DNA from: Opitutaceae bacterium
GTDB lineage: Bacteria > Verrucomicrobiota > Verrucomicrobiia > Opitutales > Opitutaceae
Length of the DNA stretch: 17,433 nt
Direction of reading: 5' to 3'
NCBI GenBank assembly: GCA_031254955.1
Contig: JAIRTK010000398.1
Location: forward strand, 1 to 17,433
The notes under the pieces were generated by a model. It worked only from the letters and a program-made list of their open reading frames with translations, was not told the DNA's origin and made no database searches. The translations under genes were made by a program, and so were the position numbers. Shown here piece by piece: positions 1 to 17,338 of this stretch (positions are counted from its first letter, which is position 1; each line of letters starts with the position of its first letter).

Positions 1-699
1 CCCCGCCCACGACAGATACCCGCGCGCCCACCGGTATGCCGGGTTGCGCGCCTTGAGCACTTCGAGCAGGCCGAGTCGCGCGTATTCATAACTTGGAGAC
101 AGCCGCAGCGCTTCCGCAAAGTGTTCCCGCGCGCCCTTGTGGTTGCCGCATTTCAGTTCCAGCCATCCTCGCGTCGCGTGCGAACGCGCGTCTTCTGGCT
201 CCGCCCGCAACGCTTGATCGCTCGTGGTTTTCGCCAGCGGTATTTTGTTCAGGTTTTCGAGCGCCCTTGCGCGCGCATTCAGGGATTCGGCGTGGGTCGC
301 GTTGATCGCCAGTCCGCTTTCCGCAAGGGCAAGGGCCTCCTCCCAGCATCCTGTGTCGCCTTTCAGATCGCTCAGAAAACTGAAATAGTCCGGGTCGTTT
401 GGGTCCAGCCGGACGGCCTCCCGCATCGACTCGATGGCTTTTGTCTCCTGGTCGTCCCATGACCAGATGACCGCGGCCCGGTAGTGGTGGTGCGCCACAT
501 CGGGGGCCATCGAAATGGCCTCCTGGATTTTTGCGACCGCCTCATTTCTCCTCCCTTGGCTGCCGAGGCTCAACGCCAGCATCGCCATGCTTTCCGAGTC
601 CGCCGGGTCGTCCGCCAGCGCCAGCATGAATTCCTCGCCGGCGGGCGCATGGCGCCCCTGCCGGTATAAAACCTTGCCCCTTTCAAGATGCCGGTTCAT
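1..699 (-). CDS. TPR-repeat protein, 3' end cut by the window edge
   Basis: An open frame of 233 codons runs from an ATG at 699 to the window edge with no stop. The product begins MNRHLERGKVLYRQGRH and is built of helical pairs of TPR type, for example around EAVAKIQEAISMAPD, SMREAVRLDPNDPD and AREHFAEALRLSPSYEYA. TPR proteins act as protein-interaction scaffolds; no catalytic domain is visible. The start overlaps the stop of the upstream TPR gene as ATGA, so translation is probably coupled. The visible part is clearly related to the neighbouring gene at 696-1943. Both end their TPR region in nearly the same stretch (EYARLGLLEVLKARNPAY here, EYARRGMLEALKARNPVY there), so this is a tandem duplicate. 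By analogy a C-terminal membrane region is expected beyond position 1. Confidence in the gene is high; its exact role is unknown. Confidence 0.85.
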   Translation of the reverse strand, partial: MNRHLERGKVLYRQGRHAPAGEEFMLALADDPADSESMAMLALSLGSQGRRNEAVAKIQEAISMAPDVAHHHYRAAVIWSWDDQETKAIESMREAVRLDPNDPDYFSFLSDLKGDTGCWEEALALAESGLAINATHAESLNARARALENLNKIPLAKTTSDQALRAEPEDARSHATRGWLELKCGNHKGAREHFAEALRLSPSYEYARLGLLEVLKARNPAYRWARGYLSWAG

Positions 700-1943
700 G
701 CGCGCCGCGCCAAAATCATGGCGAGAAATTGAAACGCGATGAAGCCGCCCATGAACGACGCCACGCAGCCGGACGGGTCGGGCGGCGGCTCGCTGAAAAA
801 AAACAACGCCCATGCGCCCGTGCCGCACGCGAACAACACCGCCGACGCGCCCGCGAGGATTTTTCGCGGACGCCCTTCCATCGCGAAAGTCGCGGCCACG
901 CATACGGACGCCGCCGCCAGCACCAGCGCGAGAGGCAGCCCGGGCGCCCACCCGAATGCGAATCCCGCCAGCGCGCCCAGCGCGCCGAAAAACGCCGCGC
1001 CGAACCAGTTGCTCGCGCGCCGCTCGCCCGCCGACAGCACCAGCCGTCCGAAGCGGTCGAGGCGCAGCAGGAGGTTGAACATCGGCACGGCCACCCATGA
1101 CAGATAGATGAACAGATAAAACAGGATCAGCAGCGGCCAGATCACGGCGCCGAGGCCCGGCACGCTTTCCGCCGCCACCCGCAGCACCCGCTGCGCCGCA
1201 AGCGTGCCCAGGACAAACACCCATTGCATGCGGCCGCTCTGCCGGCCCATCCACAAGAAATACGCGAGCATTCCGCGATACACCGGGTTGCGCGCCTTGA
1301 GCGCCTCAAGCATTCCCCGGCGCGCGTATTCAAAATCCGGATGCAGCCGCAGCGCCTCCTTGAAATGCTCCTGCGCCTTGCGCGGGTTGTTCAGGTGAAG
1401 CGCGTTCCAGCCTTGGTTGGCGTGCGAGAGGTGATTCTCCGGCTCCCTCTCCAGCGTGTATGAAACCGTGTCCGCCGCCTCCTTTTTTCGGCCGAGTCGC
1501 ACCAGCGCCATTGCCCGCAGATTCGCAGCGCGTGTGTTTTCGGGATTCAGTGCCATTGCCTGTTCCGCCGAGCGCAACGCCGCCTTGGCATCACCGCAAG
1601 TCAGGAGAATCGCCGCCTGTTCCGCGAAGTATTCGTCGCTTTCCGGGGCGAGGCGGATCGCCTCCGCGATTGGGGAGCGTGCCTCCGCGGCGCGGTTCGC
1701 AAGCAGGAGCGCAAGCGCGTGCGCATGGTGCGTGCCCGGTTCGTCGGGTGCGAGTCCGACCGCGCGCTTTGCCATGGAGACAGCGTCGTCGTGCCTGTCT
1801 TGCGCGCCAAGGCAGCCGGACAGCATCGTCAGGCTCCGGACATCCTGCGGATTCGCCACGAGGGCCTTGCGAAATTCGCCTTCGGCCTCCTTGTATCGCT
1901 CTTGAACATACAACAACTGGCCGCGCTGGAAATGGGGGGTCAT
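696..1943 (-). CDS. TPR protein with C-terminal multi-pass membrane region
   Basis: The product has 415 residues. Residues 1 to about 215 are TPR helices (for example KEAEGEFRKALVANPQD and RKAQEHFKEALRLHPDFEYA). Residues about 224-415 hold several hydrophobic segments, roughly 262-290, 313-333, 335-355, 362-383 and 393-412, so the TPR part should be anchored at the inner membrane. No enzyme motif is seen. The ATG at 1943 overlaps the TGA of the AAA+ gene (ATGA), and its own TGA overlaps the ATG of the next TPR gene in the same way. The three are therefore almost certainly one operon with coupled translation. A likely role is a membrane-bound adaptor or docking platform for the AAA+ ATPase, which itself has a TPR-like N-domain. 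That role is inference from context. No Shine-Dalgarno motif precedes the start. Confidence 0.9.
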   Translation of the reverse strand: MTPHFQRGQLLYVQERYKEAEGEFRKALVANPQDVRSLTMLSGCLGAQDRHDDAVSMAKRAVGLAPDEPGTHHAHALALLLANRAAEARSPIAEAIRLAPESDEYFAEQAAILLTCGDAKAALRSAEQAMALNPENTRAANLRAMALVRLGRKKEAADTVSYTLEREPENHLSHANQGWNALHLNNPRKAQEHFKEALRLHPDFEYARRGMLEALKARNPVYRGMLAYFLWMGRQSGRMQWVFVLGTLAAQRVLRVAAESVPGLGAVIWPLLILFYLFIYLSWVAVPMFNLLLRLDRFGRLVLSAGERRASNWFGAAFFGALGALAGFAFGWAPGLPLALVLAAASVCVAATFAMEGRPRKILAGASAVLFACGTGAWALFFFSEPPPDPSGCVASFMGGFIAFQFLAMILARRA

Positions 1944-3385
1944 TTTTTGATTTTGAGATGGGCCAGAATGTCGTCATAGAGGCCGCTCTGGTTTGAATAG
2001 AGCGCGTAGTTGCGCGCGGTTTCAAACCAATCGCGCACCGAGGGGCGATGGCGTTTGGCGGCGTCGGCGAGGTCTCCCGTGCGCAATGGAAAAAGTTTTC
2101 CGCTCTTCATCGCCTCGCGCAGTTTCGCTTCGACCGCTGTCTCGACCACGGCGCGCAGGTCGGCGCCGGAGAAACCGTCGGTCCTTCTTGCAAGCCCGTC
2201 GAAATCAATGTCGTCCTGGGGCTTTCCCTTCAGGTGAATGCGCAGGATGGATGCGCGCGCGGAGGCGTCGGGTGGCGGCACGAAAAGTATCCGGTCAAAG
2301 CGCCCCGGTCGCCGGAACGCCGGGTCGAGATGCCAGGGCGTGTTGGTGGCCGCGAGGATGAGCACGCCTTCGTTCGAGCTGCCCACGCCATCAAGCTCCG
2401 AGAGAAATTGGTTGATGATTTGCCGCCCGCCGCTCTTGAGCATGTCGCTGCGGTTTGCGCCGAGCGCGTCCACCTCGTCGAAAAATAAAACGCACGGGCG
2501 GTGCGACCGCGCCTGCTCGAAAATCGCGCGCAGGTTTTTCTCGCTCGCACCGATCCACATGTCGAGCACGTCGCTGATGCCGACGGCGAGAAAGCCCGCC
2601 TTTACCTCGCCGGCGGTGGCCCGTGCCAGAAATGTCTTTCCGCATCCCGGCGGCCCATACATCAGGATGCCGCCACCCACCTTTTTCCCATAGGCCTTGA
2701 ACAATTCCGGCTGCTTCAACGGCAGGATGATTTTCATGCGAATCTCCTCCTTGACCGCATCCATGCCGCCGACGCCGTCGAAGCCTTCCGCCGGTCTTTC
2801 GACATCCACCACCGGCGAGCCTTGCGGCAACTCACCGGCAGGCATGCGCTCCCGCTCGTCGCTCCGCCCGCCGCCATCGTCCTCGTCGTGCTTTCCGTCA
2901 AACACAGGGGCCGGTGCGTCCGGCTGTTGTCTGTCAGGCAGGGAAACGGGTGGAAGCGATTTCAACCAAGCTCCCAACTCCTCCTCAAATGCTGAATCAG
3001 TCTGTGACAAGTCGGCGGTTTTTGCCTGTGAATAAAGTCGCGCCGCCAGCGCGCGCTCTCCGGCATGGAACGCCAGCCTCGCGTGAAGCAGGTGCACGCG
3101 TGGCATGACGGGAGGGGTTTTTTCGATTTGCTCGACAATCACGAGCGCGGCGGAAAATTTTCCAAGCCGGTAAAACGCGCCCGCCAGCCCAATTTGCGCG
3201 GCAGTAAACTCCGGCTGGCAAGACAGCGCCTGTTTAAAAACCACTTCAGCGGCCTCGGTCGCGCCTGCATTGAGCAGCGTCTCGCCAATGTGAGAGAGCA
3301 ATGGGGCATTTTTCGGAGTGACGCTAATTGCGTCTCGCAAAACTTGCGGAATGAGGGGGGAGGAAAGTGCTTCGGTGATGTCCAT
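1940..3385 (-). CDS. Cdc48/FtsH-type AAA+ ATPase with TPR-like N-terminal domain
   Basis: The product has 481 residues and one AAA module. Residues about 25-125 look like TPR helices (EAAEVVFKQALSCQPEF, ALAARLYSQAK). A low-complexity acidic linker follows at about 145-200. The ATPase core shows Walker A GPPGCGKT (244-251), a pore-loop-like MWIG (276-279), Walker B VLFFDE (299-304), sensor 1 Asn348, an RRPGRFDR arginine-finger box (358-365, likely Arg359 and Arg362) and a sensor-2 region GFSGADLRAV (404-413). All key residues are present, so it should hydrolyse ATP, form a hexamer and thread or remodel proteins. It lacks the membrane segments and the HEXXH protease domain of FtsH, so it is not a protease alone. 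Its stop overlaps the next TPR gene, and a rhomboid-like gene lies 113 nt upstream on the same strand. Substrate and cellular role are unknown. Confidence 0.93.
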   Translation of the reverse strand: MDITEALSSPLIPQVLRDAISVTPKNAPLLSHIGETLLNAGATEAAEVVFKQALSCQPEFTAAQIGLAGAFYRLGKFSAALVIVEQIEKTPPVMPRVHLLHARLAFHAGERALAARLYSQAKTADLSQTDSAFEEELGAWLKSLPPVSLPDRQQPDAPAPVFDGKHDEDDGGGRSDERERMPAGELPQGSPVVDVERPAEGFDGVGGMDAVKEEIRMKIILPLKQPELFKAYGKKVGGGILMYGPPGCGKTFLARATAGEVKAGFLAVGISDVLDMWIGASEKNLRAIFEQARSHRPCVLFFDEVDALGANRSDMLKSGGRQIINQFLSELDGVGSSNEGVLILAATNTPWHLDPAFRRPGRFDRILFVPPPDASARASILRIHLKGKPQDDIDFDGLARRTDGFSGADLRAVVETAVEAKLREAMKSGKLFPLRTGDLADAAKRHRPSVRDWFETARNYALYSNQSGLYDDILAHLKIKK

Positions 3386-3410
3386 GTCGCGAGGGAGTAG
3401 CTAAAACAAT

Positions 3411-3433
3411 TTTCACAGAGCCTTCTGTGGAAA
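3411..3433 (-). terminator. Hairpin between rhomboid-like and AAA+ genes, possible weak terminator or attenuator
   Basis: CACAGA (3414-3419) pairs with TCTGTG (3424-3429) around a 4-nt loop, with partly pairing T/A runs outside. On the minus strand the hairpin follows the stop of the rhomboid-like gene and is followed by AAAATTGTTTTAG, a broken U-run. It could partly terminate the upstream transcript or mark an RNA-processing site ahead of the AAA+ gene. The short stem and imperfect U-tract keep confidence low. Confidence 0.35.
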
Positions 3434-3498
3434 ATCAGAAGCTTTTGAAAGAGAAATGGATGGCGCCATGTCGAACGGCATGTGATGGGCGGGAAGGC

Positions 3499-4314
3499 TC
3501 AGGATTTGGCCGGCGGCTCGACGACGATGTGTTCGTGGTTGCGGATATGCTCGGAGCAGTAGCAGTAGTCGCCCGCGCACTTGGAGCAGTAGCGGAAGTC
3601 CTCCTGCGGATGGGTGCGGTCGGTCTTGCCGCACACGTGGCAGCGGTGGCGGGGTTCGTTGGCCTCGGCGATGCGCCGCGCCTGCTCGGCCATGCGGCGG
3701 CGGCCGTGCCGCGCGTTTTGCCAGATGGCGCGGGCAAAGAAGAGAAGGAAGTTTCCGACCGCTGCGATGATGGTGAGCCGTGTCGCGAGGCCGCCCGTGA
3801 TGAAGCTGCAGCCGTATACAATCCACGTGAAGAGCGCGATCCACTTGATGCGCACCGGCAGGATAAAAAACAGGTGGAGCGTGAAGTCCGGGAAGAGAAA
3901 CGCAAAGGCGAGAAAGAGCGAGCCGGCGATGAAGGTGTTGCTGGCGGGATAGTCGGGCGTGATAAAGGACAGCCCGACGGTGAGCGCGTAGCCGATGAAA
4001 AGGAAAAGGTTGTAGCGGACCGTGCTCCAATGGTGCTCAAGCGCGGTGCCGTAGAGGTAGAGCAGGTAGAGCGCAAACGCCGCCCCGATGACGCCGAAAG
4101 TCGAGACGGGAATCGGCGGCAGAAACACAAACGTGACGAGCCGCCACCACTGCCCTTCGAGCACGAGCGCGGGATAAAGTTGCAGCAAAGACGGATCGAT
4201 CCGCCTGAGCATCGCCGCGCCGAGCGCGAGAAGCTGCCCGGCGACGATGTAGATCGTGATGTTGCGGATGGCGAAAGGTTCGAGCCAGCGCTCGATGCGA
4301 TGGAGCCATGACAT
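3499..4314 (-). CDS. Rhomboid-fold membrane protein, predicted pseudoprotease, with C-terminal Cys/His zinc-binding tail
   Basis: The product has 271 residues. Hydrophobic segments occupy about residues 17-36, 55-90, 100-118, 124-142, 145-170 and 172-194. EGQWWRLVTFVFLPP (53-67) matches the WR loop of rhomboid proteins, and SNTFIAGSLFLAFAFLFPD (125-143) sits where active rhomboids carry GxSG. The GxSG motif is absent, and the TM6 segment reads IAAVGN where active enzymes have a His-Gly-Gly type motif, so the Ser/His dyad seems lost. The tail has Cys225, Cys228, Cys243, Cys246, Cys251, Cys253, His256, His260 and His262, a likely zinc-binding module in a soluble tail. Inactive rhomboids such as Derlins bind and thin membranes to help extract client proteins. 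The gene lies just upstream of a Cdc48-like AAA+ gene on the same strand. Calling it a protease would be unsafe. Confidence 0.82.
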   Translation of the reverse strand: MSWLHRIERWLEPFAIRNITIYIVAGQLLALGAAMLRRIDPSLLQLYPALVLEGQWWRLVTFVFLPPIPVSTFGVIGAAFALYLLYLYGTALEHHWSTVRYNLFLFIGYALTVGLSFITPDYPASNTFIAGSLFLAFAFLFPDFTLHLFFILPVRIKWIALFTWIVYGCSFITGGLATRLTIIAAVGNFLLFFARAIWQNARHGRRRMAEQARRIAEANEPRHRCHVCGKTDRTHPQEDFRYCSKCAGDYCYCSEHIRNHEHIVVEPPAKS

Positions 4315-4475
4315 GATTGGGGTTCGTCTTTAACGGCTGAACCCGGCGGCGCGAAGGGAAAAGCGCGGGACGGGAAATTTTTTCGGCAGCGCCACCGTCG
4401 CATTGGGCCGCGCCGCGCGGCCCAATGCGGGCGGGCAATTTGTCGCCGGCGTCCGTGGCACTCGATTCGCCTGCG

Positions 4476-4642
4476 TCATACCCTTTCCCAGTGAACAGGA
4501 CACTTTAGAAGCAGCGCCATGTAGGGGCTTCGCTTGCGAAGCCCGTTGCTGGTGCACGGCCTTTGCTGGCGCACGGTTATCAATCCGGGCGTCGCAAGCG
4601 ACGCCCCTACAAAAGTGTGATTTTCATTGGGAATGGGTATCA
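4476..4642. repeat. Composite nested-palindrome element A
   Basis: The outer arms are a diverged inverted repeat. The left arm starts TCATACCCTTTCC (4476) and ends ACACT (4504). The right arm starts AGTGTGATTTTCATT (4614) and ends GGGTATCA (4642). Between them lies an inverted pair of small GTAGGG-ended hairpins (4521-4610). The layout matches element B directly downstream. No open frame lies inside. It resembles a non-coding REP or MITE-type unit. Confidence 0.7.
4521..4610. repeat. REP-like inverted pair 1 (GTAGGG...CCCTAC)
   Basis: Two hairpins face each other: GGGCTTCGCTTGCGAAGCCC at 4525-4544 and GGGCGTCGCAAGCGACGCCC at 4588-4607. Each has a perfect 9-bp stem and a 2-nt loop. The left one is bounded by GTAGG and the right one by CCTAC. 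The spacer holds a 14-bp tandem duplication, TTGCTGGYGCACGG, at 4546-4559 and 4563-4576. This is typical of REP/BIME sequences mobilised by RAYT transposases in other bacteria; no transposase gene is in the window. Confidence 0.75.
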
Positions 4643-4668
4643 TACCCTTTCCTAATGAAAATCACACT
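4614..4668. repeat. 55-bp near-perfect palindrome at the junction of elements A and B
   Basis: Arms of 27 bp surround a single central base at 4641. The outer 15 bp (AGTGTGATTTTCATT at 4614 and its complement ending at 4668) match perfectly, as do the GGAA/TTCC and GGGTAT/ATACCC blocks; only two positions per arm do not pair. It is formed where the right arm of element A meets the left arm of element B. It is unlikely to be a terminator because no U-run follows it on either strand. Confidence 0.85.
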
Positions 4669-4782
4669 ATGGAAGCCGTTAAAGGTAGGGCGAGGCGTCC
4701 CGCCGAGCTGCGAGCGCTTCCCACGGCTCGGCGGGACGCCTCGCCCTACCTGGAGGGGGATTTTCATTCGCAAAGGGTGTCA
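4640..4782. repeat. Composite nested-palindrome element B
   Basis: The left arm (TCATACCCTTTCC from 4640, ending with ATCACACT at 4668) is repeated inverted and degenerate at 4759-4782 (GATTTTCATTCGCAAAGGGT and on). Inside lies a perfect 25-bp inverted repeat, 4684-4708 and 4726-4750, with a 17-nt loop. It begins GGTAGGGCGAGGCGTC and ends GCCTCGCCCTACC. The architecture is the same as element A but the inner hairpin sequence differs. Confidence 0.75.
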
Positions 4783-4958: not shown

Positions 4959-5062
4959 GCGCGGGGGAGGACGGGATTTTATTGTCGGGGCGGTAGCTCC
5001 GCGTCATGCCTTTTCTCGTTTCAAACCGCGCGGGGGGGTCAGAATTTTATTGCCGGGGAGGT
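4956..5062. repeat. Degenerate direct duplication of the skp 3' end
   Basis: A 39-bp segment at 4956-4994 and a 38-bp segment at 5025-5062 share ACCGCGCGGGGG, then ATTTTATTG, then CGGGG and GGT, offset by 69 bp. The second copy contains the skp stop codon (5039-5041) and its last codons. The first is an apparent untranslated relic. Confidence 0.55.
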
Positions 5063-5671
5063 GCCGGTGGCGGCGGTGCCGGTGGCGGTGCCGGTCGCGG
5101 CGGTCGCGGGGCGGTCTTTGTTCAGGTCGGTGATGACCTCGTCGGTGATGTCGAAGCCGGGGTCGGAATAGACGACTGTGATCACGGCGCCGTTGGATTT
5201 TTCAAGGAGCAGGGTGATGCTTTTCTTTTTGGCTATGCCCGAGGCGATTTCGGTGATTTTTTCAAGGAGGCTCCGGCGGGAGCTTTCGAGCTGGTTCTGG
5301 ATGGTCTGGTTTGCGTTGGCGATGTATTGCTGGCGCTCTTGCTCTTTTTCTTGGAGTCGTTGGAGCATGGCTTGGGCGGCGATGGCGGCGTCTTTGCGGG
5401 CTTGTTCGCTGGCGATGGCGCTTTCGGAGCGGGTCTTGGCTTCTTCAAATTCCTTGGCGAGTTCGCGGCCTTCGTTGACGATTTTCTCGGTGCCTTCGCG
5501 GGCGCGTTGCTGGTATTGTTCGATGACGGCGCGTTCTTCTTGGGTTTTCCAATAGCCGTCGAGGGCTTTGTTGATGTCGATGGTGCCGACTTTCAGCGTT
5601 TGGGCCGGGGCCAGGAGCGCGGTTGTCCCGATGGCGGCGATTGCGATGAGGGTTTTGATGGAGATGTTCAT
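5039..5671 (-). CDS. skp: OmpH/Skp family periplasmic chaperone
   Basis: The product has 210 residues. A signal peptide is clear: MNISIKTLIAIAAIG, then a hydrophobic core, with likely cleavage near APA-Q (23/24). The mature start LKVGTIDINKALDGYWKTQEE is the typical first strand and helix of OmpH/Skp. Residues 45-150 are charged Gln/Glu/Arg/Ala-rich helix, the tentacle coiled coil that forms the trimer cavity. ITLLLEKSNGAVITVVYSDPGFDITDEVI returns to the body domain. The C-terminus adds a short Ala/Thr/Gly repeat tail (AATGTATGTAATGT) not usual in Skp. Skp carries unfolded outer-membrane proteins across the periplasm to the BAM complex. It lies 58 nt after bamA on the same strand, the same bamA-skp order as in many Gram-negatives; a lipid A gene (lpxD) does not follow. 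No Shine-Dalgarno motif is visible. Confidence 0.92.
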   Translation of the reverse strand: MNISIKTLIAIAAIGTTALLAPAQTLKVGTIDINKALDGYWKTQEERAVIEQYQQRAREGTEKIVNEGRELAKEFEEAKTRSESAIASEQARKDAAIAAQAMLQRLQEKEQERQQYIANANQTIQNQLESSRRSLLEKITEIASGIAKKKSITLLLEKSNGAVITVVYSDPGFDITDEVITDLNKDRPATAATGTATGTAATGTSPAIKF

Positions 5672-5729
5672 GGTTGTTTCAGGAGGCGTGAAAGTCTGCT
5701 GGTTTTAGGATGGGAAAAGACGGAGTAAA

Positions 5730-8144
5730 TCAGAATCGGGTGCCAAAAGAAAAGTTAAATTGGTTGCCCTTGCTGTTGAATTTGTCGCGGGTGAGGGGGA
5801 TGCCGAAGTCGAGGCTGAGGGGCGCGCCGGCCACGAAGAGGCGGAGGCCGAAGCCGAAGTTGTCGTTGTAGGCGGCGGGGGTGAAGTCGTAGGAGCGTTC
5901 GTTGACGAAGCCGGCGTCGTAGAAGAAGGCGAAGCGCACGGGGCTGACGATGTCGAACGAATACTCAAGGCTGAGCATGCCGTAGGTGTTTCCGCCCATG
6001 ATGTTGCCGTAGGAGTCTTTCGGGCCGACGTCGCGGTTTTCAAAGCCGCGCAGGGTGTAGGGGCCGCCGAGGGTGTATTTTTCGCTGTAGGGGACGCCGC
6101 CGTCCCGGTAGCCGGGAAGGGCTTTGTCGCGGGTGCGTCCGTAGCTTTCGATGACGCCGGCGCGGGCGATGATGGCGATGGTCTGGGCTTGGGCGCGGAA
6201 GATGGGGAAGAATTGGGAGCCGCGAAATTCGACGCGGTAGTAGTCTTCGCTGCCGCCGAGGGGGCCGCCGGTGTGGGAGTAGTTCAGTTCGATGCGGCCT
6301 CCGTCGGTGGTGTTGATGATGCGGTCGCGGGTGTCGCGGAGGAGTTGGAAGGAGATGGTGGAGGTTTTGTAGCGGTCGCGGAGTGTGCCGTCGGCGTTTT
6401 GAAAGTAGCCGATGTAGGCGGATTCGATGTCCTCGTATTTGACGTTTTCGTAGGTGTAGGAGAGGGTGCCTTCGAAGAGTTCGAAGAGGCGTTTGCGGAG
6501 GTAAACTTGGCCGCCGGTGCGGACTTCGTCGTAGTAGGAGTTGTCGTAGTTGGAGCTGGTGCGGTAAACGGAGAAGCCGAGGGCGAGTTCTTTTTGCAGG
6601 AACCAGGGTTCTTCAAAGGAGAGGATGGCTTCGCTGGAGTTGGAGCCGACTTGGAGGCGGATGCGGAATTTCTGGCCGCCGCCTTGGAAGAAGGATTTGC
6701 GGTTGAAGAGGTCGAAGTTGGACTGGGTGAGTTCGGCGAAGACGACGGCTTTTTCGAGGGAGCTGAAGCCGGCGCCGAACTGGAGGTTGCCGGTGCGGCC
6801 TTCGGTGACGGTGATCTTGAGGTTGCGGCGTCCGGGGATGTTGGTCGATTCGGGGGTGAGGTTGGTGTCTTCGAAGAAGCGGGTGTTGTCGAGGCGCATT
6901 TTGCTGCGTTTCATGCTGACCATGTCGAAGACTTCGCCGGGGCCGAGCGTGAGTTCGCGGATGATGACGATGCTTTTGGTCTTGGTGTTGCCTTCGACTT
7001 GGATGGATTCGACGTAATACTGGTCGCTTTCGGCGACTTCGTATTCGATGTCGATGTTGCCGGTGGCGATGTTGGGTTTGCGGATGGGGCGCACGCGGGC
7101 GTCGAGGTAGCCGTCTTTGCCGTAAAAGTCTTCCATGGTGGAGACGTCTTCGTCGAGTTTGGAGGGGCGGAACACCATGCCGGAGTGCTGCGAGATGATG
7201 AGCATGAGCAGCGGGGTGGGGTAGAGTTTGTTGCCGGTGAAGGTGATTTGGCCGATGCGATACTGGCGGCCTTCGTCCACTTGGATGGTGAGGAGGAGTT
7301 TGTTGTCGGTCGGGTATTCGTAGGTGACTTTGTCGGCGGGGATTTCGATGTCGAGGAAGCCTTCTTCGCGGTAGTAGTCGCGGAGTTTGTTGAGGTCGTC
7401 TTCGAAGAGTTCGTCTTTGAAGCGGCCCGAGCCGGTCAGCCAGGAGAACATCCAGCGGCGGCGGGTTTCCATGACGCCGCGCAGTTTCTTGGCTTTGACG
7501 CTGTGGTTGCCGACGAAGTTGATTTCGGAGATTTTGACTTTGTTGCCTTCGCGGATTTTGAAATACACGGTGCCGTAGCCGGTGGCGCGGTCGCGTTCGA
7601 TTTCGTAGCTGATGTAAACGCGGTTGTAGCCTTTTTTCTGGTAGTATTCGCGGATTTTTTCGGCGTCTTCTTTCACTTGGCGTTCGTCGAGTGCTTGGTT
7701 CTGGCGGGTTTTGGTCTCTTTTTCGAGGGTGCCGGACTTGATTTTTTCGTTGCCGGAGAAGACGACTTCTTGCACGCGGTATTTCGGCGTGACTTCGATG
7801 ACGAGGTTGACGACGCGGTTCGGCAGCACTTCGCGTTTTACTTCGATGAACTCGAACAGGCCCGTGCGGTAGAGTGAGCGGATGTCGCGGTCGATCATCG
7901 TGTCGTCGAGTTCGCCGCCGGGTTTTACCTGCATGTTGGCGCGGACGATTTGTTCGTTGACGTTGGCGGTGCCCACGAAGCGCACGGTGACGGTGCCGAC
8001 TTTGTAGGGTTGGTAGGGCCGGGGGCCGGGGCCGGGAACGCCGCCCATCTGGGCAAGGGCTTGCGCGCCAATCCAAGTGGCGAGGAGGGCATTGAGTAAG
8101 AAACGGATGGCCCGGGCCGTTGGGCTACTGGGTGTAGTTTTCAA
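5730..8144 (-). CDS. bamA: Outer membrane protein assembly factor BamA (Omp85)
   Basis: The product has 804 residues, the usual BamA length. A signal peptide (AIRFLLNALLATWIGAQALA, 12-31) is followed by five POTRA domains at about 47-122, 123-203, 204-295, 296-376 and 377-450. Several begin with the characteristic pattern of strand plus GN (EVVFSGN, EINFVGN, QITFTGN, SIQVEGN). The barrel covers about 451-804, with the conserved loop-6 motif LRGF (698-701) and a terminal Phe. BamA inserts beta-barrel proteins into the outer membrane. The frame's best start is TTG at 8144, because it keeps a full signal peptide. The next in-frame ATG (residue 33) would delete it. The start overlaps the dnaB 3' end by 20 bp, so initiation is probably coupled to dnaB translation. 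skp follows 58 nt downstream. Confidence 0.96.
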   Translation of the reverse strand: MKTTPSSPTARAIRFLLNALLATWIGAQALAQMGGVPGPGPRPYQPYKVGTVTVRFVGTANVNEQIVRANMQVKPGGELDDTMIDRDIRSLYRTGLFEFIEVKREVLPNRVVNLVIEVTPKYRVQEVVFSGNEKIKSGTLEKETKTRQNQALDERQVKEDAEKIREYYQKKGYNRVYISYEIERDRATGYGTVYFKIREGNKVKISEINFVGNHSVKAKKLRGVMETRRRWMFSWLTGSGRFKDELFEDDLNKLRDYYREEGFLDIEIPADKVTYEYPTDNKLLLTIQVDEGRQYRIGQITFTGNKLYPTPLLMLIISQHSGMVFRPSKLDEDVSTMEDFYGKDGYLDARVRPIRKPNIATGNIDIEYEVAESDQYYVESIQVEGNTKTKSIVIIRELTLGPGEVFDMVSMKRSKMRLDNTRFFEDTNLTPESTNIPGRRNLKITVTEGRTGNLQFGAGFSSLEKAVVFAELTQSNFDLFNRKSFFQGGGQKFRIRLQVGSNSSEAILSFEEPWFLQKELALGFSVYRTSSNYDNSYYDEVRTGGQVYLRKRLFELFEGTLSYTYENVKYEDIESAYIGYFQNADGTLRDRYKTSTISFQLLRDTRDRIINTTDGGRIELNYSHTGGPLGGSEDYYRVEFRGSQFFPIFRAQAQTIAIIARAGVIESYGRTRDKALPGYRDGGVPYSEKYTLGGPYTLRGFENRDVGPKDSYGNIMGGNTYGMLSLEYSFDIVSPVRFAFFYDAGFVNERSYDFTPAAYNDNFGFGLRLFVAGAPLSLDFGIPLTRDKFNSKGNQFNFSFGTRF

Positions 8145-9567
8145 AGCGGGTGATGTCTCGAAGGAAGGTGAGTTTCAGTTCTCCTACCGGGCCGTTTCGT
8201 TGCTTGGCAACTATTAACTCGGCGGAGTCGGCGGCGACTTGGAATTTCTCGTCGGCGTCTTTCGGGCGCGCGAGCATGAGGACCACGTCGGCGTCCTGCT
8301 CGATGGAGCCGGATTCGCGGAGGTCGGAGAGTTTGGGTGTGCGGTTTTCTTTTTCGGCGGCACGGTTTAACTGACTTAATACAAGCACGGGCACGTCGAG
8401 TTCCTTTGCGAGTGCTTTTAGCCCGCGCGAAATTTCGGACACTTGCTGTTCGCGCGGGATTTTCGGGTCGGTCGGGCTGAGGAGTTGGAGGTAGTCCACT
8501 ATCACAAAGCCCAGCGGGCTGCGCGCGTGCAGGCGGCGGGCCTTGGCGCGGAGTTCCATGATGGTCATGTGGCTGGAGTCGTCGATGTAGAGCGGCGATT
8601 TGCTGAAGTCGTCCGCCGCTTGGAGCAGTTCCTGTTGTTCCTGGCCGTTTTTGGACAGCAGGCCGTCGCGCAGGCGTTTCATGTTTACCCGCGCGCGGGA
8701 GCAGAGCATGCGGAGCGCGAGTTGCGCCGCGCTCATTTCGAGCGAGAAGACCAGCGTGGTGACGCCGCGGCCGGTCTTCGGCATCGCGGCGGCCTCGGCG
8801 AAGTTGAGCGCGAGGGAGGTTTTGCCCATCGAGGGGCGCGCCGCGAGGATGATCATTTCCTGGCGCTGGAAGCCGTAGGTGAGGTTGTCGAGGTCCTTGT
8901 AGCCTGAGCTGATGCCGGTAAGCTCGCCTTTTTTGGTGAGCATCTTGGTGATGACGCCCATGGCTTCGTTGACCGGGCCTTTCATGGGCTTGGCGGCATC
9001 GGAAATGCGGTCTTGGGTGACGGCAAAGAGTTCCTGCTCGATTTTGTCGATGAACTCTTCCAGGCCGCCGCTGTAGTCGTAGCATTTTTCGACCGCGCCG
9101 GTGGCGACTTTGATGATCTCGCGCAAAAGAAAAAATTCGCGGATTTTCTCGATGAAATAGGGCGCTTGGGCGGTGGTCGGGATGCGTCCGCTGATTTGCG
9201 TGAGGTAGGCGTAGCCGCCGATTTCGTCGAGCTGGCGCGTGGTTTTCAGTTCCTCGGCCAGGACGGCGAGGTCGATGGCCGCGCCTTTGTTATACATCTC
9301 GACGAGTTGCTCGAAAATGACGCGGTTGGCCGGGCCATAGAAGGCGGAGGGCGCGATTTTGCCTTCAAGGCAGCGGGCGACGGTGTCGTTGCCGTCGATG
9401 AGGCAGCACGAGAGCAGGTATTCCTCGGCCTCGATGCTGTGCGGCGCGGAGCGTCCGATCAAGGGCGTGGCCGCCGCCGCCGCGTGCGCGGAATCGCCGC
9501 CGTTGGCCCCGTCGAAACGGGGGCGCCGGGATGAGGTGCGTGAGGTTTTGCCGTCGTCGTCAGCCAT
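8125..9567 (-). CDS. dnaB: Replicative DNA helicase DnaB
   Basis: The product has 480 residues, normal for DnaB. Residues 1-40 form a low-complexity basic/Ala-rich extension. The N-domain begins at APHSIEAEEYLLSCCL (41-56). The RecA-like helicase domain has Walker A ARPSMGKT (243-250), catalytic Glu277 in FSLEMS, Walker B VIVDYLQLL (355-363, Asp358), the SQLNR motif (398-402), LRESGSIEQDADVV (416-429) and AKQRNGP with the likely arginine finger Arg457 (454-460). It unwinds DNA ahead of the replication fork as a hexamer and recruits primase. Linkage to bamA is unusual compared with the rplI-dnaB or dnaB-alr orders familiar elsewhere. The two genes overlap, so essential replication and outer-membrane assembly genes share a transcript. 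No intein is present and no Shine-Dalgarno motif is visible. Confidence 0.97.
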   Translation of the reverse strand: MADDDGKTSRTSSRRPRFDGANGGDSAHAAAAATPLIGRSAPHSIEAEEYLLSCCLIDGNDTVARCLEGKIAPSAFYGPANRVIFEQLVEMYNKGAAIDLAVLAEELKTTRQLDEIGGYAYLTQISGRIPTTAQAPYFIEKIREFFLLREIIKVATGAVEKCYDYSGGLEEFIDKIEQELFAVTQDRISDAAKPMKGPVNEAMGVITKMLTKKGELTGISSGYKDLDNLTYGFQRQEMIILAARPSMGKTSLALNFAEAAAMPKTGRGVTTLVFSLEMSAAQLALRMLCSRARVNMKRLRDGLLSKNGQEQQELLQAADDFSKSPLYIDDSSHMTIMELRAKARRLHARSPLGFVIVDYLQLLSPTDPKIPREQQVSEISRGLKALAKELDVPVLVLSQLNRAAEKENRTPKLSDLRESGSIEQDADVVLMLARPKDADEKFQVAADSAELIVAKQRNGPVGELKLTFLRDITRFENYTQ

Positions 9568-11285: not shown

Positions 11286-13931
11286 ATGCATAATCCTATC
11301 CCCTCCCATAACCGCCCCGCCCGTCACCCGCAATACCGCCGCGCCACGCGCGCCTGCCTGCCCGGTCTTCTGGCCCTCCTGACCCTCACCGCCGCCTTCG
11401 CGCCCGAGGTCTCCGCCCAGCGCGACGACAACCGCCGCCTCGCCTGGACCGGCTCCTTCGGCGCCGAGTGGAGCGGCTCGTCGTGGAAAACCTCCGACTA
11501 CTATTTGAGCAAACTGAACGCCACCGAGGCCCAGTGGACCGGCCCGATTCCGGGCTTGGGCGAACCCTCGGTGGCCTTCCTTGCCGGCGATTCCGTCCTC
11601 TTCGACAGCACCGGCGATGTCGTCGCCTCCCGCGTCGTCGCTATCGCCAGCGGCGGTGTCACCGCCTCCGATGTCGTCGTCTCCGGCGCCGGCGACTACA
11701 CTTTCACCGGCGGCGCGATCACCGCCGACGGCGGCGCCTTGATGCCGACGACCTACCAGCTTGCCGGCTCCGGCGTCGCGCCCGGCGGGCGGCTCGTCAA
11801 GACCGGCGCCGGCACGCTCACGCTCTCCAACACCGCCGCCAATACCTTCAAAGGCGGCATCCTCTTCACGGAAGGCAACCTCGTCGTCACCGACAACCGC
11901 GCCCTCGGCGACAACAACCTCTCCGTCATCGCCGCCACCACCTCCGGCGCCACGAACCACCTGCTGCCCGGCATCGTCACCCATGCCGGCGGCGCGCTGC
12001 TCCGCATCGGCAGCAACACGCTGCTCAACACCTATCTTGCCGTCGCCGCCTCCGCCTCCGGGCTGGACATCACTGGCGACATCTACTTCGGCCCGACGGC
12101 GGCGCTCCACATCCGCACCGAAGGCGACACCACCATTTCCGGCCGCATTTACGGCGACCAAGCCATCCCCGCCGGCGCCTCCACCGGCGCCATCTCAAAA
12201 AGCGGCGCCGGCACCCTCACCCTCACCGGCGCCAACAACTGGCTCGGCGGCACCATCACCGGCACCTGGAACAACATCGCCTACACCGGCGGCGTTGTCA
12301 TCTATGAAGGCAAAGTCGTCGCCACCACCGCCGGCGCCCTCGGCGGAAACAACATCGCCATCACCCCCGACGGCACGCTCGCCATCCAAGGCGTTCGCGG
12401 CGCCACCTACCCCATGTCCCTCGTCGGCGGCGGACGCGTCGAAGTCGTGGACAGCGACATCACCTTCAACTGGCGCAACGGCTCCCTCATCAACGTCGGC
12501 GCCGCCAACAACAACGACATCGCCCACCTCGTCGTCACCGCCACCTCGCGCCTCGCCGCCATCGCCAGCGGCACCCTCTCCACCGTGCTCGGCGGCCCCG
12601 CCGTCACCGTCACCGTCAGCGACCACTCCGCCCTCGTGCTCGGACGCGAAGGCATCACCCACATCAGCATCAACGGCACAAACCCGCCCATCGCCTACCG
12701 CATCGACGCCGGCAACATCGCCCTCACCGACGGCAGCGCCCTCGTCTTCCTGCCCAACACCTACCTGAAAGTCGGCGGCCTCCTCACCCTCGACGCCGAC
12801 TCGAAAATCGCCTTCGCCGGCTCCGGCGTCTCCCGCCTCGATTACCTCTCCGGCGACATTCCCGCCGCCGCCGCCCACCTCGTCCCCGACGGCATGACCC
12901 TCGAACGCCGCGTCGATACCGGCGCCGGACGCGTGGACTACATCGTCGTGAACCAAGGCGCCAACCCCCTGATGGACATCGCCATGACCCTCGCCTCCAT
13001 CGACGCCGCCCTGGACACCGTCTCCGCGCGCCTCCACGAAAACCTCCTCCAACCCGTCGCCCGCCCCGAAGGCGCCCGCAACTGGAACCATGCCGCGTGG
13101 TCGCGCTATTTTGCCAGCGACTTCACCCACGACGCCGACACCGCCTTCCACCCCGGCTGGGACGGACGCCTCTCCGGCCTCCTCGCCGGCATTGCCAGCA
13201 CCCACGGACAAAACACCCAACTCGGCCTCTACGCCGGCATGACCGAAAGCAACCTCACCACCACCAACAACACCAGCCTGCAATCCAAACAACGCGTCCT
13301 CGGCCTCCACGCCGCCCAACGCTTCGACTGGTTCTACGCCGGCCTGCACCTCGCCCGCGTCACCGCCCACACCGACTCCTGGCGCCGCGAATCCTCCACC
13401 TGGCGCAGCGCCCCCCTCGTCACCCACGGACGCTGGCGCAACGCCGGCTTCACCGGCGGCGGCGAAATCGGCGCCCTCCTCGAACCCTGGAAAAACGGCT
13501 ACCTCAAACCCTTCGCCGGCCTGCGCTACACGCAAATCGACCTCACCGGCTTCACCGAACGCAGCAACACCGAACACAACAGCAACTCAATGGAAGTGGA
13601 AAACTTCACCGACACCCTCATCCAAGTCACCGGCGGCGTGCAAGCCGGCCAACGCTTCAAACTCCTTGGCCGCGACGCCGCCCTCTCCCTCTCGCTCGCC
13701 GGCAAACACGCCGCCCGCTCCCCCCGCGAGACCCTCTCCGCCACCTACCGCGGCACCGGCTGCTCCTTCACGCTCTCCCGCGACGACTACTACAAAGACA
13801 CCGCCGCCATCGGCCTCTCCCTGCGCGTGCTCCTCCCCCGCCGCGTCCAAGCCGGCCTCGATCTGGAACGCGAAACCGGCTCCAAACGCACCCGCGACAC
13901 CCTCGCCCTCCTGCTCGGCGTCACCTGGTAA
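11286..13931 (+). CDS. Autotransporter (type V secretion) with PATR beta-strand repeats
   Basis: The product has 881 residues. An extended N-terminal signal (basic residues 10-23, hydrophobic LPGLLALLTLTAAFA, likely cleavage after VSA at 44) directs export. The passenger (about 46-590) is Gly/Thr/Asp-rich beta-helix. It carries two recognisable autotransporter-associated repeats: KTGAGTLTLSNTAANTFKGG (172-191) and KSGAGTLTLTGANNWLGG (305-322), each followed by EGNLVV or EGKVVAT. Residues about 595-881 form the C-terminal translocator barrel (starts NHAAWSRYFASDF, contains GLYAGMTESNL and KPFAGLRYTQ, ends LLLGVTW with a terminal aromatic). The barrel inserts with BAM help and displays the passenger on the surface. 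No protease triad or adhesion motif was recognised, so the passenger's function is unknown. The start follows a pyrimidine-rich leader without Shine-Dalgarno. A TonB-dependent receptor follows after 44 nt. Confidence 0.93.
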   Translation: MHNPIPSHNRPARHPQYRRATRACLPGLLALLTLTAAFAPEVSAQRDDNRRLAWTGSFGAEWSGSSWKTSDYYLSKLNATEAQWTGPIPGLGEPSVAFLAGDSVLFDSTGDVVASRVVAIASGGVTASDVVVSGAGDYTFTGGAITADGGALMPTTYQLAGSGVAPGGRLVKTGAGTLTLSNTAANTFKGGILFTEGNLVVTDNRALGDNNLSVIAATTSGATNHLLPGIVTHAGGALLRIGSNTLLNTYLAVAASASGLDITGDIYFGPTAALHIRTEGDTTISGRIYGDQAIPAGASTGAISKSGAGTLTLTGANNWLGGTITGTWNNIAYTGGVVIYEGKVVATTAGALGGNNIAITPDGTLAIQGVRGATYPMSLVGGGRVEVVDSDITFNWRNGSLINVGAANNNDIAHLVVTATSRLAAIASGTLSTVLGGPAVTVTVSDHSALVLGREGITHISINGTNPPIAYRIDAGNIALTDGSALVFLPNTYLKVGGLLTLDADSKIAFAGSGVSRLDYLSGDIPAAAAHLVPDGMTLERRVDTGAGRVDYIVVNQGANPLMDIAMTLASIDAALDTVSARLHENLLQPVARPEGARNWNHAAWSRYFASDFTHDADTAFHPGWDGRLSGLLAGIASTHGQNTQLGLYAGMTESNLTTTNNTSLQSKQRVLGLHAAQRFDWFYAGLHLARVTAHTDSWRRESSTWRSAPLVTHGRWRNAGFTGGGEIGALLEPWKNGYLKPFAGLRYTQIDLTGFTERSNTEHNSNSMEVENFTDTLIQVTGGVQAGQRFKLLGRDAALSLSLAGKHAARSPRETLSATYRGTGCSFTLSRDDYYKDTAAIGLSLRVLLPRRVQAGLDLERETGSKRTRDTLALLLGVTW

Positions 13932-13975
13932 ACCCCGCCCCGCCCCGCTCCCCCATCCTTAACCTCTCCCCTGCC

Positions 13976-16900
13976 ATGAAACTCAAAACCCACCTCGCCC
14001 ACCTCGCCGCCCTCCCCGCCCTCTTCATCGCCTGCACCTCATTCGCCGCACCCGCCGCGCCCGATACGCCCGACACACCCACCGCCGCACCAGCCACCCC
14101 ATCCGCACCCGCCGCCCCCACCACGCCACCCGCCGCGCCCGCCGCCACGCCCGCCCCGGCGCCCACGCGGACCGTCACCATCACAGGCCGCGTCCTCAAC
14201 ACCGTCTCCGGCTACTACGTGCGCAGCGCCGAAGTCCGCGTCGCCGGCACCAACCACTTCGTTTACACCGAAGACGGCGGCACCTACCGCATCGACGTTC
14301 CCGCCGGCCCCGTCACCCTCACCGCCAGCTACGCCGGCGTCCAACCCTCCACCCTCACCCTCGACGCCGCCCCCGGCGCCCCCAACACCCTCGACTTCGA
14401 ACTCCAGCCCCTCGGCGCCCTCGCCACCCCCGGCGCCCTCCCCGCCGGCCAAGAGGAAATCATCATGCTCGAAGGCATCACCGTCTCCGAAGAACGCATC
14501 GGCCAAGCCAAAGCCATCATGGAACAACGCGCCGCCATCAACGCCAAAACCGTCATCGCCACCGACAACTTCGGCGAACTCACCCAAGGCAACATCGGCG
14601 AATTCATGAAATACATGCCCGGCCTCGCCCTCGACTACACCGAAGTCGAGGCCACCGGCATCCGCATCGGCGGCCTCGACCCCAAATACACCGGCTTCTC
14701 CACCGACGGCATCAACCTCGCCTCCGCCAACGCCTCCAGCGGCGCCTCCACCGCCGGCGCCACCGCCACCCGCGCCCTCGACATCGCCGCCGTCTCCATC
14801 ACCGGCATCGAATCCATCGAATTTAACCAGACCCTCACCGCCAGCATGGACGCCGGCGCCGCCGCCGGCCTCATCAACATGAAAAGCAAATACTCCTTCA
14901 ACATCCGCAAAAACACCCTCCGCTACCAATTCGGCCTCGACGCCTCCAGCGACGCCCTCGACCTCGGCCGCGACTACATGCCCGACGACCGCCTCCACCG
15001 CCGCGTCTTCCCCGGCGGCATGCTCAACTACGGCGGCGTCTTCTTCGACCGCCGCCTCGGCATCGAAGCCAGCGCCAGCCGCTACACCGGCTACACCCTC
15101 CAGCACTACACCCAAGTCGTCTACGCCTACTACGTCGGCGGCCCCGAAGCCGGCGCCATCCTCCCCGGCAGCCCCACCATCAACAGCATCCAATGGCGCC
15201 CCGGCCCCAAATACTACAAACGCACCGCCGCCAACCTCAGCCTCGACTTCAAAATCACCCCCGCCCTCATCTTCTCCCTGCGCGGCAACTGGAACAAAAG
15301 CGAAGGCGAATTCTTCAACCTCTACACCCGCCTCACCGCCGAAAACTACTCCAGCGCCTCCGGCGGCTACACCGGCCCCTCCGCCGGCCTCCAACGCGGC
15401 TCCAACCTCACCACCTGGACCGTCCGCCCCACCTCCACCACCAGCAACGAAACCCGCCTCTACACCGACTACTCCCGCCGCCAAACCAAATCCATCAACC
15501 AACTCCTCTCCCCCCGCCTCACCTACAAACAAGGCCCCCTCAACATCGAACTCCGCGCCGCCTACACCAAAGCCCGCAACCAACTCTCCGAAGACGACGA
15601 AGGCTACTTCCGCAACACCGGCAACCGCCTCAACGGCATCGGCTGGACCGCCACCCGCTCCAGCGAAAGCTCCCCCTCCTGGACCCTCACCCAAACCGAC
15701 GGCATGGACTGGTCCCTCCCCCAAAACTGGAACCGCGCCGGCACCTACGACTCCGTCCTCCGCGCCACCCCCGAAACCACCCAAAACACCCAATACTCCG
15801 GCAACCTCGACATCACCTACGCGCGCCGCGTCCTCGGCCACCCCGTCACCTTCAAAACCGGCGGCGGCCTCCGCCGCAACAAATTCTCCTACGACGGACG
15901 CTACGACCGCTACAACTACCTCGGCCCCACAGGACGCCAGATAGAAAACACCATCCCCTGGACCCAAAATTACACCTTCGACTTCGATTTCGGCAACATC
16001 CGCGACCAAGGCTGGCGCGCCGACAACCACTACGAAATGGCCCGCCTCTACCGCGAAAACCCCACATGGTTCCAATACGACGCCATCCGCAGCCACGGCT
16101 ACAACCTCCTCAAACCCCGCTACGCCACCGAACGCGTGGACGCCGCCTACCTCGAAGCCACCACCCGCCACGGCCGCTGGCAATTCAACGCCGGCCTCCG
16201 CTACGAAGGCACCCACACCGAAGCCCAAGTCACCAAAATGCGCCCCAACGAAGACATCGAACTCGCCAAATCCCTCGCCACCCCCGAGCAAATCGCCACC
16301 GGCATGTTCGACGGCAGCGCCTCCATCCCCGGCATCGACTACAAATACTACAACGGCCAACGCTTCTCCCGCAAACGCTCCTACGACAACCTCTTCCTCT
16401 CCGGCGGCCTCAAATACGACATCACCAAAGACCTCCGCTTCCAACTCTCCGCCTCCCAGTCCATCCTCCGCCCCAACTACAACAACATCGCCGGCGTCAT
16501 CCAATTCTACAACGAAACCTACTCCTCCGACATCTGGGTCCCCAACCCCATCCTCAAACCCGAACGCACCACCAAATACTACGCCGGCCTCCAATACTAC
16601 CTCAACCCAGCCGGCATCCTCGGCCTCTCCGTTTACCGCCTCGACATCCGCGGCAAACAAATCAACGGCATGCAAATCACCCAGGAACAAGCCGAAAGAC
16701 AACTCGGCTTCCCCCTCCGCGACGCCCTCGACATCAACACCGACGCCCCCATCGACCCCGGCGGCGACACCGGCGACGACCCCGACGAAAGCGGCGACGA
16801 AGGCACCGACATCACCGTCATTTACGTCCCCATCAACTACCGCTCCACCATCAACGTGGACGGCACGCGCACCGTTTACGGCGTCACCCTCGAATACAAC

Positions 16901-17338
16901 CAGCAACTCACCTTCCTCCCCGGCCCCCTCAAAGGCCTCGGCGTCTTCGGCTCCTACACCTGGTCCGACATGCAAAACGCCCACGAAGACGAAGAACTCA
17001 TCGGCGTCATCGAACGCTCCGCCAACGGCGGCGTGAAATACCGCTACAAACGCTTCAACATCCAACTCCGCGCCTCCTGGCAGGACGACCAACTCAAAGC
17101 CGTCACCCGCCCCATCCCCGGCCGCAACTGGCTCCTCACCGACCACCGCTACCTCAAATCCCGCATCATCTTCGACCTCTCCGGCGGCTTCAACCTCGGT
17201 CGCGACCTCGACATCGTCTTCAGCATCCGCAACCTCTTCAACGCCCCCCAAGTTTACTACTCCAACACCCGCGGCCGCATGACCGAATATTTCGTCAGCG
17301 GCGCCATCTGCAGCGTCAGCCTCAAAGGCGCCTTCTAG
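13976..17338 (+). CDS. TonB-dependent receptor with carboxypeptidase-regulatory-like N-domain
   Basis: The product has 1120 residues. A signal peptide (MKLKTHLAHLAALPALFIA..., cleavage near SFA-A, about 24) precedes a Pro/Ala/Thr linker (26-63). A carboxypeptidase-regulatory-like beta-sandwich follows at about 64-146 (TITGRVLNTVSGYYVRSAEV). A plug begins near EGITVSEE (166-173, possible TonB box) and includes MKYMPGLALDYTEVEATGIR (211-230). The 22-strand barrel spans about 310-1120 and ends in SLKGAF, with the terminal Phe read by BAM. It imports a scarce ligand across the outer membrane using TonB/ExbBD energy. The layout resembles Caulobacter/Xanthomonas-type receptors, often for glycans; the ligand cannot be told here. 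Residues 923-945 are a very acidic loop. The frame stays open upstream to 13097 but that part only shadows the autotransporter. The ATG at 13976 gives a proper signal peptide. Confidence 0.95.
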   Translation: MKLKTHLAHLAALPALFIACTSFAAPAAPDTPDTPTAAPATPSAPAAPTTPPAAPAATPAPAPTRTVTITGRVLNTVSGYYVRSAEVRVAGTNHFVYTEDGGTYRIDVPAGPVTLTASYAGVQPSTLTLDAAPGAPNTLDFELQPLGALATPGALPAGQEEIIMLEGITVSEERIGQAKAIMEQRAAINAKTVIATDNFGELTQGNIGEFMKYMPGLALDYTEVEATGIRIGGLDPKYTGFSTDGINLASANASSGASTAGATATRALDIAAVSITGIESIEFNQTLTASMDAGAAAGLINMKSKYSFNIRKNTLRYQFGLDASSDALDLGRDYMPDDRLHRRVFPGGMLNYGGVFFDRRLGIEASASRYTGYTLQHYTQVVYAYYVGGPEAGAILPGSPTINSIQWRPGPKYYKRTAANLSLDFKITPALIFSLRGNWNKSEGEFFNLYTRLTAENYSSASGGYTGPSAGLQRGSNLTTWTVRPTSTTSNETRLYTDYSRRQTKSINQLLSPRLTYKQGPLNIELRAAYTKARNQLSEDDEGYFRNTGNRLNGIGWTATRSSESSPSWTLTQTDGMDWSLPQNWNRAGTYDSVLRATPETTQNTQYSGNLDITYARRVLGHPVTFKTGGGLRRNKFSYDGRYDRYNYLGPTGRQIENTIPWTQNYTFDFDFGNIRDQGWRADNHYEMARLYRENPTWFQYDAIRSHGYNLLKPRYATERVDAAYLEATTRHGRWQFNAGLRYEGTHTEAQVTKMRPNEDIELAKSLATPEQIATGMFDGSASIPGIDYKYYNGQRFSRKRSYDNLFLSGGLKYDITKDLRFQLSASQSILRPNYNNIAGVIQFYNETYSSDIWVPNPILKPERTTKYYAGLQYYLNPAGILGLSVYRLDIRGKQINGMQITQEQAERQLGFPLRDALDINTDAPIDPGGDTGDDPDESGDEGTDITVIYVPINYRSTINVDGTRTVYGVTLEYNQQLTFLPGPLKGLGVFGSYTWSDMQNAHEDEELIGVIERSANGGVKYRYKRFNIQLRASWQDDQLKAVTRPIPGRNWLLTDHRYLKSRIIFDLSGGFNLGRDLDIVFSIRNLFNAPQVYYSNTRGRMTEYFVSGAICSVSLKGAF

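Follow-up and report, generated by a model that had tools for sequence, protein, structure and literature searches.

The window analysed here is a complete contig of 17.4 kb (JAIRTK010000398.1, 17,433 nucleotides) from a metagenome-assembled genome (MAG) of an Opitutaceae bacterium, which is 68.7% complete. At one end it carries the genes for a rhomboid-like membrane protein (RHO), an AAA+ ATPase and two proteins with TPR domains, TPR1 and TPR2 (Table 1), RHO and AAA+ lying side by side on the same strand. An earlier note, made from the letters and their translations, had read this gene set as a possible bacterial counterpart of the eukaryotic Derlin-Cdc48 system. The four open reading frames were confirmed where the note had placed them, as were the two overlapping TPR genes downstream of AAA+; since the window is the whole contig of an incomplete genome and TPR2 crosses its end, the latter is truncated. 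The finding that seems to us worth following is that the relatives of RHO exchange places with intramembrane metalloproteases of the M50 family.

Table 1. Genes and smaller features at the RHO end of the window.
Feature	Position	Strand	Remarks
RHO, Derlin-like rhomboid pseudoprotease, 271 aa	3499..4314	(-)	rhomboid-fold membrane domain and zinc-ribbon-like tail
RHO codons 57-58, loop-1 WR motif of rhomboids and Derlins	4141..4146	(-)	
RHO C-terminal Cys/His tail, zinc-ribbon-like, residues about 220-262	3529..3657	(-)	
Weak terminator-like hairpin, RHO/AAA+ spacer	3414..3429	(-)	spacer fold z -0.93
AAA+ ATPase, N-terminal TPR, p97-D2-like, 481 aa	1940..3385	(-)	
TPR1, TPR domain and polytopic membrane domain	696..1943	(-)	constant AAA+ neighbour
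TPR2, 5' portion of a gene paralogous to TPR1 (39% identity) that runs off the contig	1..699	(-)	

The RHO protein of the window has no Pfam match at E≤0.01, with the Rhomboid family (PF01694) appearing at E 0.2, under its cut-off. Its predicted structure is confident (predicted local distance difference test, pLDDT, 89.8), and the strong structural matches of the model are rhomboid-fold proteins. The top Foldseek match is chain W of the human endoplasmic reticulum-associated degradation (ERAD) complex 7y4w (E 9.7e-4, 24% identity), which we take to be Derlin-1. When compared in structure, this chain (Z 13.4, root-mean-square deviation 5.2, 182 residues, 20% identity) is tied with GlpG (Z 13.3, deviation 3.8, 160 residues, 12% identity) and, going by the model, RHO is a member of the rhomboid superfamily by fold.

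RHO differs from rhomboid proteases such as GlpG in its missing catalytic residues, which were read from alignments of 42 (A1) and 47 (A4) RHO relatives and of 15 comparison rhomboids from related genomes selected for the presence of GxSG (A5). The GxSG motif with the catalytic serine of transmembrane helix 4 (TM4) occurs in 0/42 and 0/47 RHO relatives, and a histidine stands at any column of TM6 in at most one of the 42 or 47, none being conserved. An Ala-His pair is invariant in A5 (15/15), and in a profile alignment with active relatives their catalytic serine faces a gap in the RHO family. Both loop-1 residues, W57 and R58, are kept in all 42 sequences of A1, and in A4 in 44/47 and 47/47, respectively; in the tail, which would be cytosolic, His223, Cys225, Cys228 and Cys253 are each present in 47/47 of A4 (His223 in 40/42 of A1). 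The earlier description of a rhomboid fold without GxSG or TM6 histidine and with a Cys/His tail is borne out by A1 and A4, no intact Ser/His dyad having been found on alignment to active rhomboids and, as far as these alignments tell, RHO is a catalytically dead rhomboid pseudoprotease. It occurs in 159/252 genomes of the family (E≤1e-10), and at least 537 stretches in named genomes encode relatives. The best 80 of these were taken together with up to 10 kb of flanking DNA. At 46-54% identity, they include isolates of Geobacter, Geomesophilobacter and Geomonas as well as MAGs labelled Nitrospirae, Nevskia, Planctomycetaceae, Elusimicrobia, Chitinivibrionales and Syntrophus. The RHO family is a real bacterial pseudoprotease, broadly distributed across labels of several phyla.

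Its kinship with Derlins was approached by profile and motif searches. One RHO homologue (L209) scores 38.5 bits against DER1 (PF04511, cut-off 26.6) over nearly the full profile length and another (L228) 26.2 bits, just under the cut-off, while the window protein gives no match at E≤1. A DER1 search of 57 related genomes returned five matches at E≤0.01, none above the cut-off and four of them from the RHO family, and a precomputed DER1 label is carried by 5 of 120 listed RHO homologues. At E≤0.1, 6/47 sequences of A4 are matched by DER1 and likewise 6/47 by Rhomboid; DER1 also matches one of the 15 GxSG rhomboids. Sequence searches of solved structures weigh against Derlin kinship: the A1 profile found GlpG (best E 0.0048) and no Derlin up to E 1, the A4 profile likewise GlpG (best E 0.045) and no Derlin up to E 5, and phmmer with L209 found GlpG alone (E 0.37). 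A string like the SHP box, which recruits Cdc48 and was sought here as an FxGxGxxL-like pattern, occurs in 0/42 tails of A1 and 0/47 of A4. GxxxG is absent from TM6 of the RHO family (A1, A4). WR in loop 1 and GxxxG in TM6 have been described as Derlin features, and yeast Der1 as having neither (PMC8641752). RHO resembles Derlins in its loop-1 WR and in having 7y4w chain W as first Foldseek match, and differs from them in being bacterial, in lacking the TM6 GxxxG and an SHP-like tail, and in the zinc-ribbon-like tail that it has in place of the latter. It is Derlin-like and is not classed as a Derlin. Neither a bacterial Derlin family nor an exchange of rhomboid and M50 was found in literature titles and abstracts, among the matches listed.

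In Opitutaceae RHO is usually at home in a slot with the order TPRsp-[RHO or M50]-prmB. TPRsp is a TPR gene with an apparent signal peptide at its start (judged by eye), and the product of prmB is matched by the model for the L3 glutamine methyltransferase PrmB (TIGR03533, 309.9 bits, cut-off 229.7). The slot count uses 137 of the 159 RHO genomes (main-type places), with prmB among the matches listed in 91 and none in 46. In 87 of the 91, RHO and prmB are same-strand neighbours, and in two they are on different contigs; where they share a contig they are thus adjacent in 87/89, an M50 gene lying between them in the other two (G002 and G158). prmB was not found in the incomplete genome of the window. 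For RHO-less slots, the region upstream of prmB was taken from 59 genomes which, with G252, represent 60 of the 93 RHO-less genomes of the family. M50 was found in 58/59 fetched loci, 53 of them with TPRsp within reach, and in G252, and the sole slot without it belongs to a contig that ends after 386 bp. The 30 best prmB loci, unselected for slot content, hold RHO (24), M50 (5) or a contig edge (1), and no third occupant was seen in 82 distinct testable slot loci. RHO and M50 stand in tandem in G002, G158, L226 and L183, and an M50 match lies alongside in the G050 locus.

The exchange has occurred repeatedly. In a tree of TPRsp with 91 rows of 99 candidate loci (eight were dropped, having no TPRsp match of 120 aa), the RHO label needs at least 16 changes, nine of them forced by well-supported branches, against 28.6 in shuffles, and the three states together need 23, against 41.6. 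Even sister genomes differ in their slot (G277 has M50, G274 RHO). Positions 3487-4377 of the window and 7789-8680 of the G002 locus (L071) are 96.3% identical in DNA over 892 bp around RHO, and in the rest of the compared 16-kb G002 locus similarity to the window is confined to two stretches of about 30 bp each. Taken by themselves, these unrelated compared flanks and the apparent shared contig of the entries P0003 and P0121, described below, are signs that RHO alone has been exchanged between genomes. In the genome of the window, it probably came to lie beside the AAA+/TPR pair by rearrangement.

The alternative occupant belongs to the M50 or site-2 proteases (PF02163), a family unrelated to RHO, which the slot M50 of G002 matches with 60.6 bits (cut-off 27.2). 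When slot M50s were aligned to this copy to read their catalytic motifs, the His-Glu-His of HExxH was found to be lost in 25 of the 59 from RHO-less slots. Among these dead copies, LDG has mostly become LPG, in 20 together with R-A-Q and in two with R-T-Q, the remaining three having, one each, R-A-Q with LPS, R-A-Q with LDG and R-E-R with LDG. The ratio of non-synonymous to synonymous substitution rates (dN/dS) is 0.01-0.31 in the ten closest dead pairs (dS 0.08-0.54), which are not independent of one another, and the dead copies apparently evolve as under purifying selection. In an M50 tree, from which L402 was left out (L398 and L402 both belong to G001), 23 of the 25 dead copies form one supported clade and the dead label needs at least two changes. 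As an observation in its own right, the slots upstream of prmB in L340-L398 include a clade of bacterial M50 pseudoproteases with RAxxQ for HExxH and LPG for LDG.

That a rhomboid without cutting residues trades places with an M50 that is often dead as well suggests that the job done at the slot needs no cutting. The explanation that we favour, and regard as rather probable, is that two independent units have been joined in the window and that the slot protein has a non-catalytic job, served by either the RHO or the M50 fold. One unit would be the AAA+/TPR pair, the other RHO, a dead Derlin-like rhomboid with a zinc-ribbon-like tail, repeatedly swapped at the slot for the unrelated metalloprotease fold. 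The slot protein would make a hydrated, membrane-thinning cleft where transmembrane segments are held or presented, perhaps for TPRsp as a partner; TPRsp and the zinc-ribbon-like tail are both candidates for client or partner binding, and where an intact M50 occupies the slot, proteolysis may be an extra. Bilayer perturbation and the holding of transmembrane segments are proposed as the common job from rhomboid and Derlin biology (PMC8641752; PMC7231995), and by analogy the M50 fold might do the same. We advance more tentatively, as falling somewhat short of probable, the wider claim that in one bacterial membrane system the rhomboid and M50 folds have become non-proteolytic parts that can stand in for each other, a single locus conserving a function other than cutting, probably the thinning of the bilayer and the holding of transmembrane segments.

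Several points weigh against this explanation. The catalytic motif is kept in 34 of the 59 M50s from RHO-less slots, and proteolysis may therefore matter in many genomes; because the dead copies are mainly one clade, no more than about two or three losses are needed to account for them; and more distant dead pairs reach a dN/dS of 0.80, in a range where dS is unreliable. Five of 25 family RHO loci examined lack TPRsp and prmB as neighbours (G015, G014, G021, G049 and G058), the last four having RHO variants that are 37-40% identical and lie outside the slot, and in other phyla neither gene was seen within 4.5 kb of RHO. M50 was looked at in RHO genomes in the slot locus only, the TPRsp tree is the product of a quick search with long branches flagged, and a common slot does not prove a common job. 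Finally, the proximity of RHO to AAA+ in 6/19 family genomes, detailed below, exceeds random placement.

The best surviving alternative is that cassettes are exchanged at the slot under diversifying selection, such as that on a membrane protein attacked by phages or rival toxins, and that the occupants share a place and not a function. The swap between the close relatives G277 and G274, the 23 changes among three occupant kinds and the nearly identical RHO gene in two genomes with unrelated compared flanks would all be expected of such a site, but the 82 testable loci hold no folds other than these two, each of them an intramembrane-protease fold. If unrelated cargo were freely swapped, other genes would be expected as well. 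We consider this possibility unlikely, if still a serious contender.

The reading of the locus as a Derlin-Cdc48 analogue, in which RHO would recruit the AAA+ protein via TPR1 and pull membrane proteins from the bilayer, depends on the other unit. The earlier note was right about a Cdc48-like AAA+ protein with a TPR N-domain: its core is closest to the D2 ring of p97/Cdc48 (381 bits). It differs from p97/Cdc48 in having a single AAA domain and the TPR N-domain where the latter has tandem AAA rings with a Cdc48 N-domain; its score against the CDC48 family model TIGR01243 is 233 bits (cut-off 802.65), and no protease domain matched. The multi-pass membrane region ascribed to TPR1 was also recovered, as six long, probably membrane helices that follow the TPR domain. 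The two genes are adjacent in 46/46 fetched loci of the phylum (45 genomes, L039 and L251 both being from G081), and AAA+ would be a single-ring p97-D2-like unfoldase that the polytopic TPR1 protein probably keeps at the membrane. AAA+ is sparse, being found in 37/252 family genomes at E≤1e-80 and in 23/288 phylum genomes at E≤1e-75, a partial match in G422 among them. An anti-phage system was considered and rejected: AAA+ matches PADLOC IetA models (best 127.9 bits) and NCBIfam IteA (126.2 bits, cut-off 510) over the AAA core only, and no fitting partner was seen. A terminator between RHO and AAA+ was likewise given no weight, the hairpin being weak.

Linkage speaks against the four genes as one system. 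RHO and AAA+ are both present in 20 family genomes, and among the 19 with both coordinates listed (the RHO place of G233 is unlisted) they lie within 5 kb of each other in six (G000, G005, G036, G140, G145 and G250), on separate contigs in 11 and distant on one contig in G006 and G239. Five of the six close cases have the convergent order AAA+ > TPR1 > < PrmB < RHO < TPRsp, with prmB between. None of the 46 fetched AAA+ loci has RHO within a distance of 1.5 kb from AAA+, and the AAA+/TPR1 pair is present in one of the 80 named RHO loci (L157, laid out as in G145), two other AAA matches near RHO, in L210 (704 aa) and L188 (971 aa), being different genes. In G002, of the same genus and 96% complete, RHO is 97% identical and the search for AAA+ gave no match at E≤1e-50. 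The expectation that the genes stay together across Opitutaceae and Verrucomicrobia largely fails, and a Derlin-Cdc48 operon is rejected because the linkage fails in relatives; what stands of the earlier reading is a RHO pseudoprotease with some Derlin affinity and an AAA+ protein closest to p97 D2. Moreover, at least 12 of the 37 AAA+ genomes of the family have the pair convergent to prmB, with RHO in the slot in five and M50 in seven (G252, G171, G150, G156, G267, G166 and G256). Since it adjoins M50 slots as readily as RHO slots, AAA+/TPR1 is a neighbour of the slot locus and not a special partner of RHO.

A functional link between RHO and AAA+ may still exist in trans. RHO is found in 20/23 AAA+ genomes of the phylum sample versus 54/265 of the others, which kinship and genome size may cause, but inside the family there is no co-occurrence (20/37 AAA+ genomes with RHO versus 139/215 others), and this measure was not used as proof of a module. 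Outside the family, 14 genomes of this sample have both genes, in each case on different contigs, which in drafts is not final. The adjacency seen in the window may have a second case in P0003 (73% identical RHO) and P0121 (96% identical AAA+), from MAGs named Opitutaceae bacterium, as the longest contig given for either is one of 2,587 bp. The lack of an SHP-like string in all 47 tails, on the FxGxGxxL-like pattern, speaks against recruitment of the Cdc48 kind. YqgP-FtsH of Bacillus subtilis is a published rhomboid-AAA precedent in which the rhomboid presents a membrane client to the AAA machine without need of its own catalysis; YqgP retains its active site and has FtsH as partner (PMC7231995), whereas the AAA+ protein near RHO is p97-D2-like, has no protease domain match and is not reliably linked. 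All in all, the analogue seems improbable. That RHO is a cryptic protease with another nucleophile or a metal, truly replacing an active M50, is hardly credible: it does alternate with intact M50 in 34/59 RHO-less slots and has Ser at residue 132 in 40/47 sequences of A4, but this residue is Thr or Ala in 7/47, TM6 has no conserved His or Cys and offers only an acidic position at its far end (196, Asp in 34/47), the catalytic Ser of active relatives aligns to a gap, and 25 M50 occupants are dead as well.

The rest of the window holds further features. An intergenic cluster of six inverted-repeat pairs at 4399-4778, like repetitive extragenic palindromes (REP) or miniature inverted-repeat transposable elements (MITE), has perfect arms of 26 nt at 4683-4708 and 4726-4751, the others being 15-34 nt. 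Upstream of RHO on the same strand (5039-9567, minus) are genes for an OmpH-like chaperone, an Omp85/BamA-like protein with five POTRA matches and a DnaB helicase, and at 11286-17338 (plus) those for an autotransporter beta-domain protein and then a TonB-dependent receptor with a carboxypeptidase-like N-domain.

Why conserved rhomboid-fold proteins so often lack catalytic residues is an open question that has been studied mainly in eukaryotes. The exchange described here is a natural experiment on this question, in which a bacterial Derlin-like pseudoprotease is replaced by a different protease fold, of which 25 of 59 copies are dead too, and it makes the question testable by simple complementation. 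It also corrects a tempting reading of the local gene neighbourhood as a bacterial ERAD module. If the wider claim made above is true, the folds of intramembrane proteases would have been selected at this locus for a function other than cutting, with one fold swapped for the other again and again.

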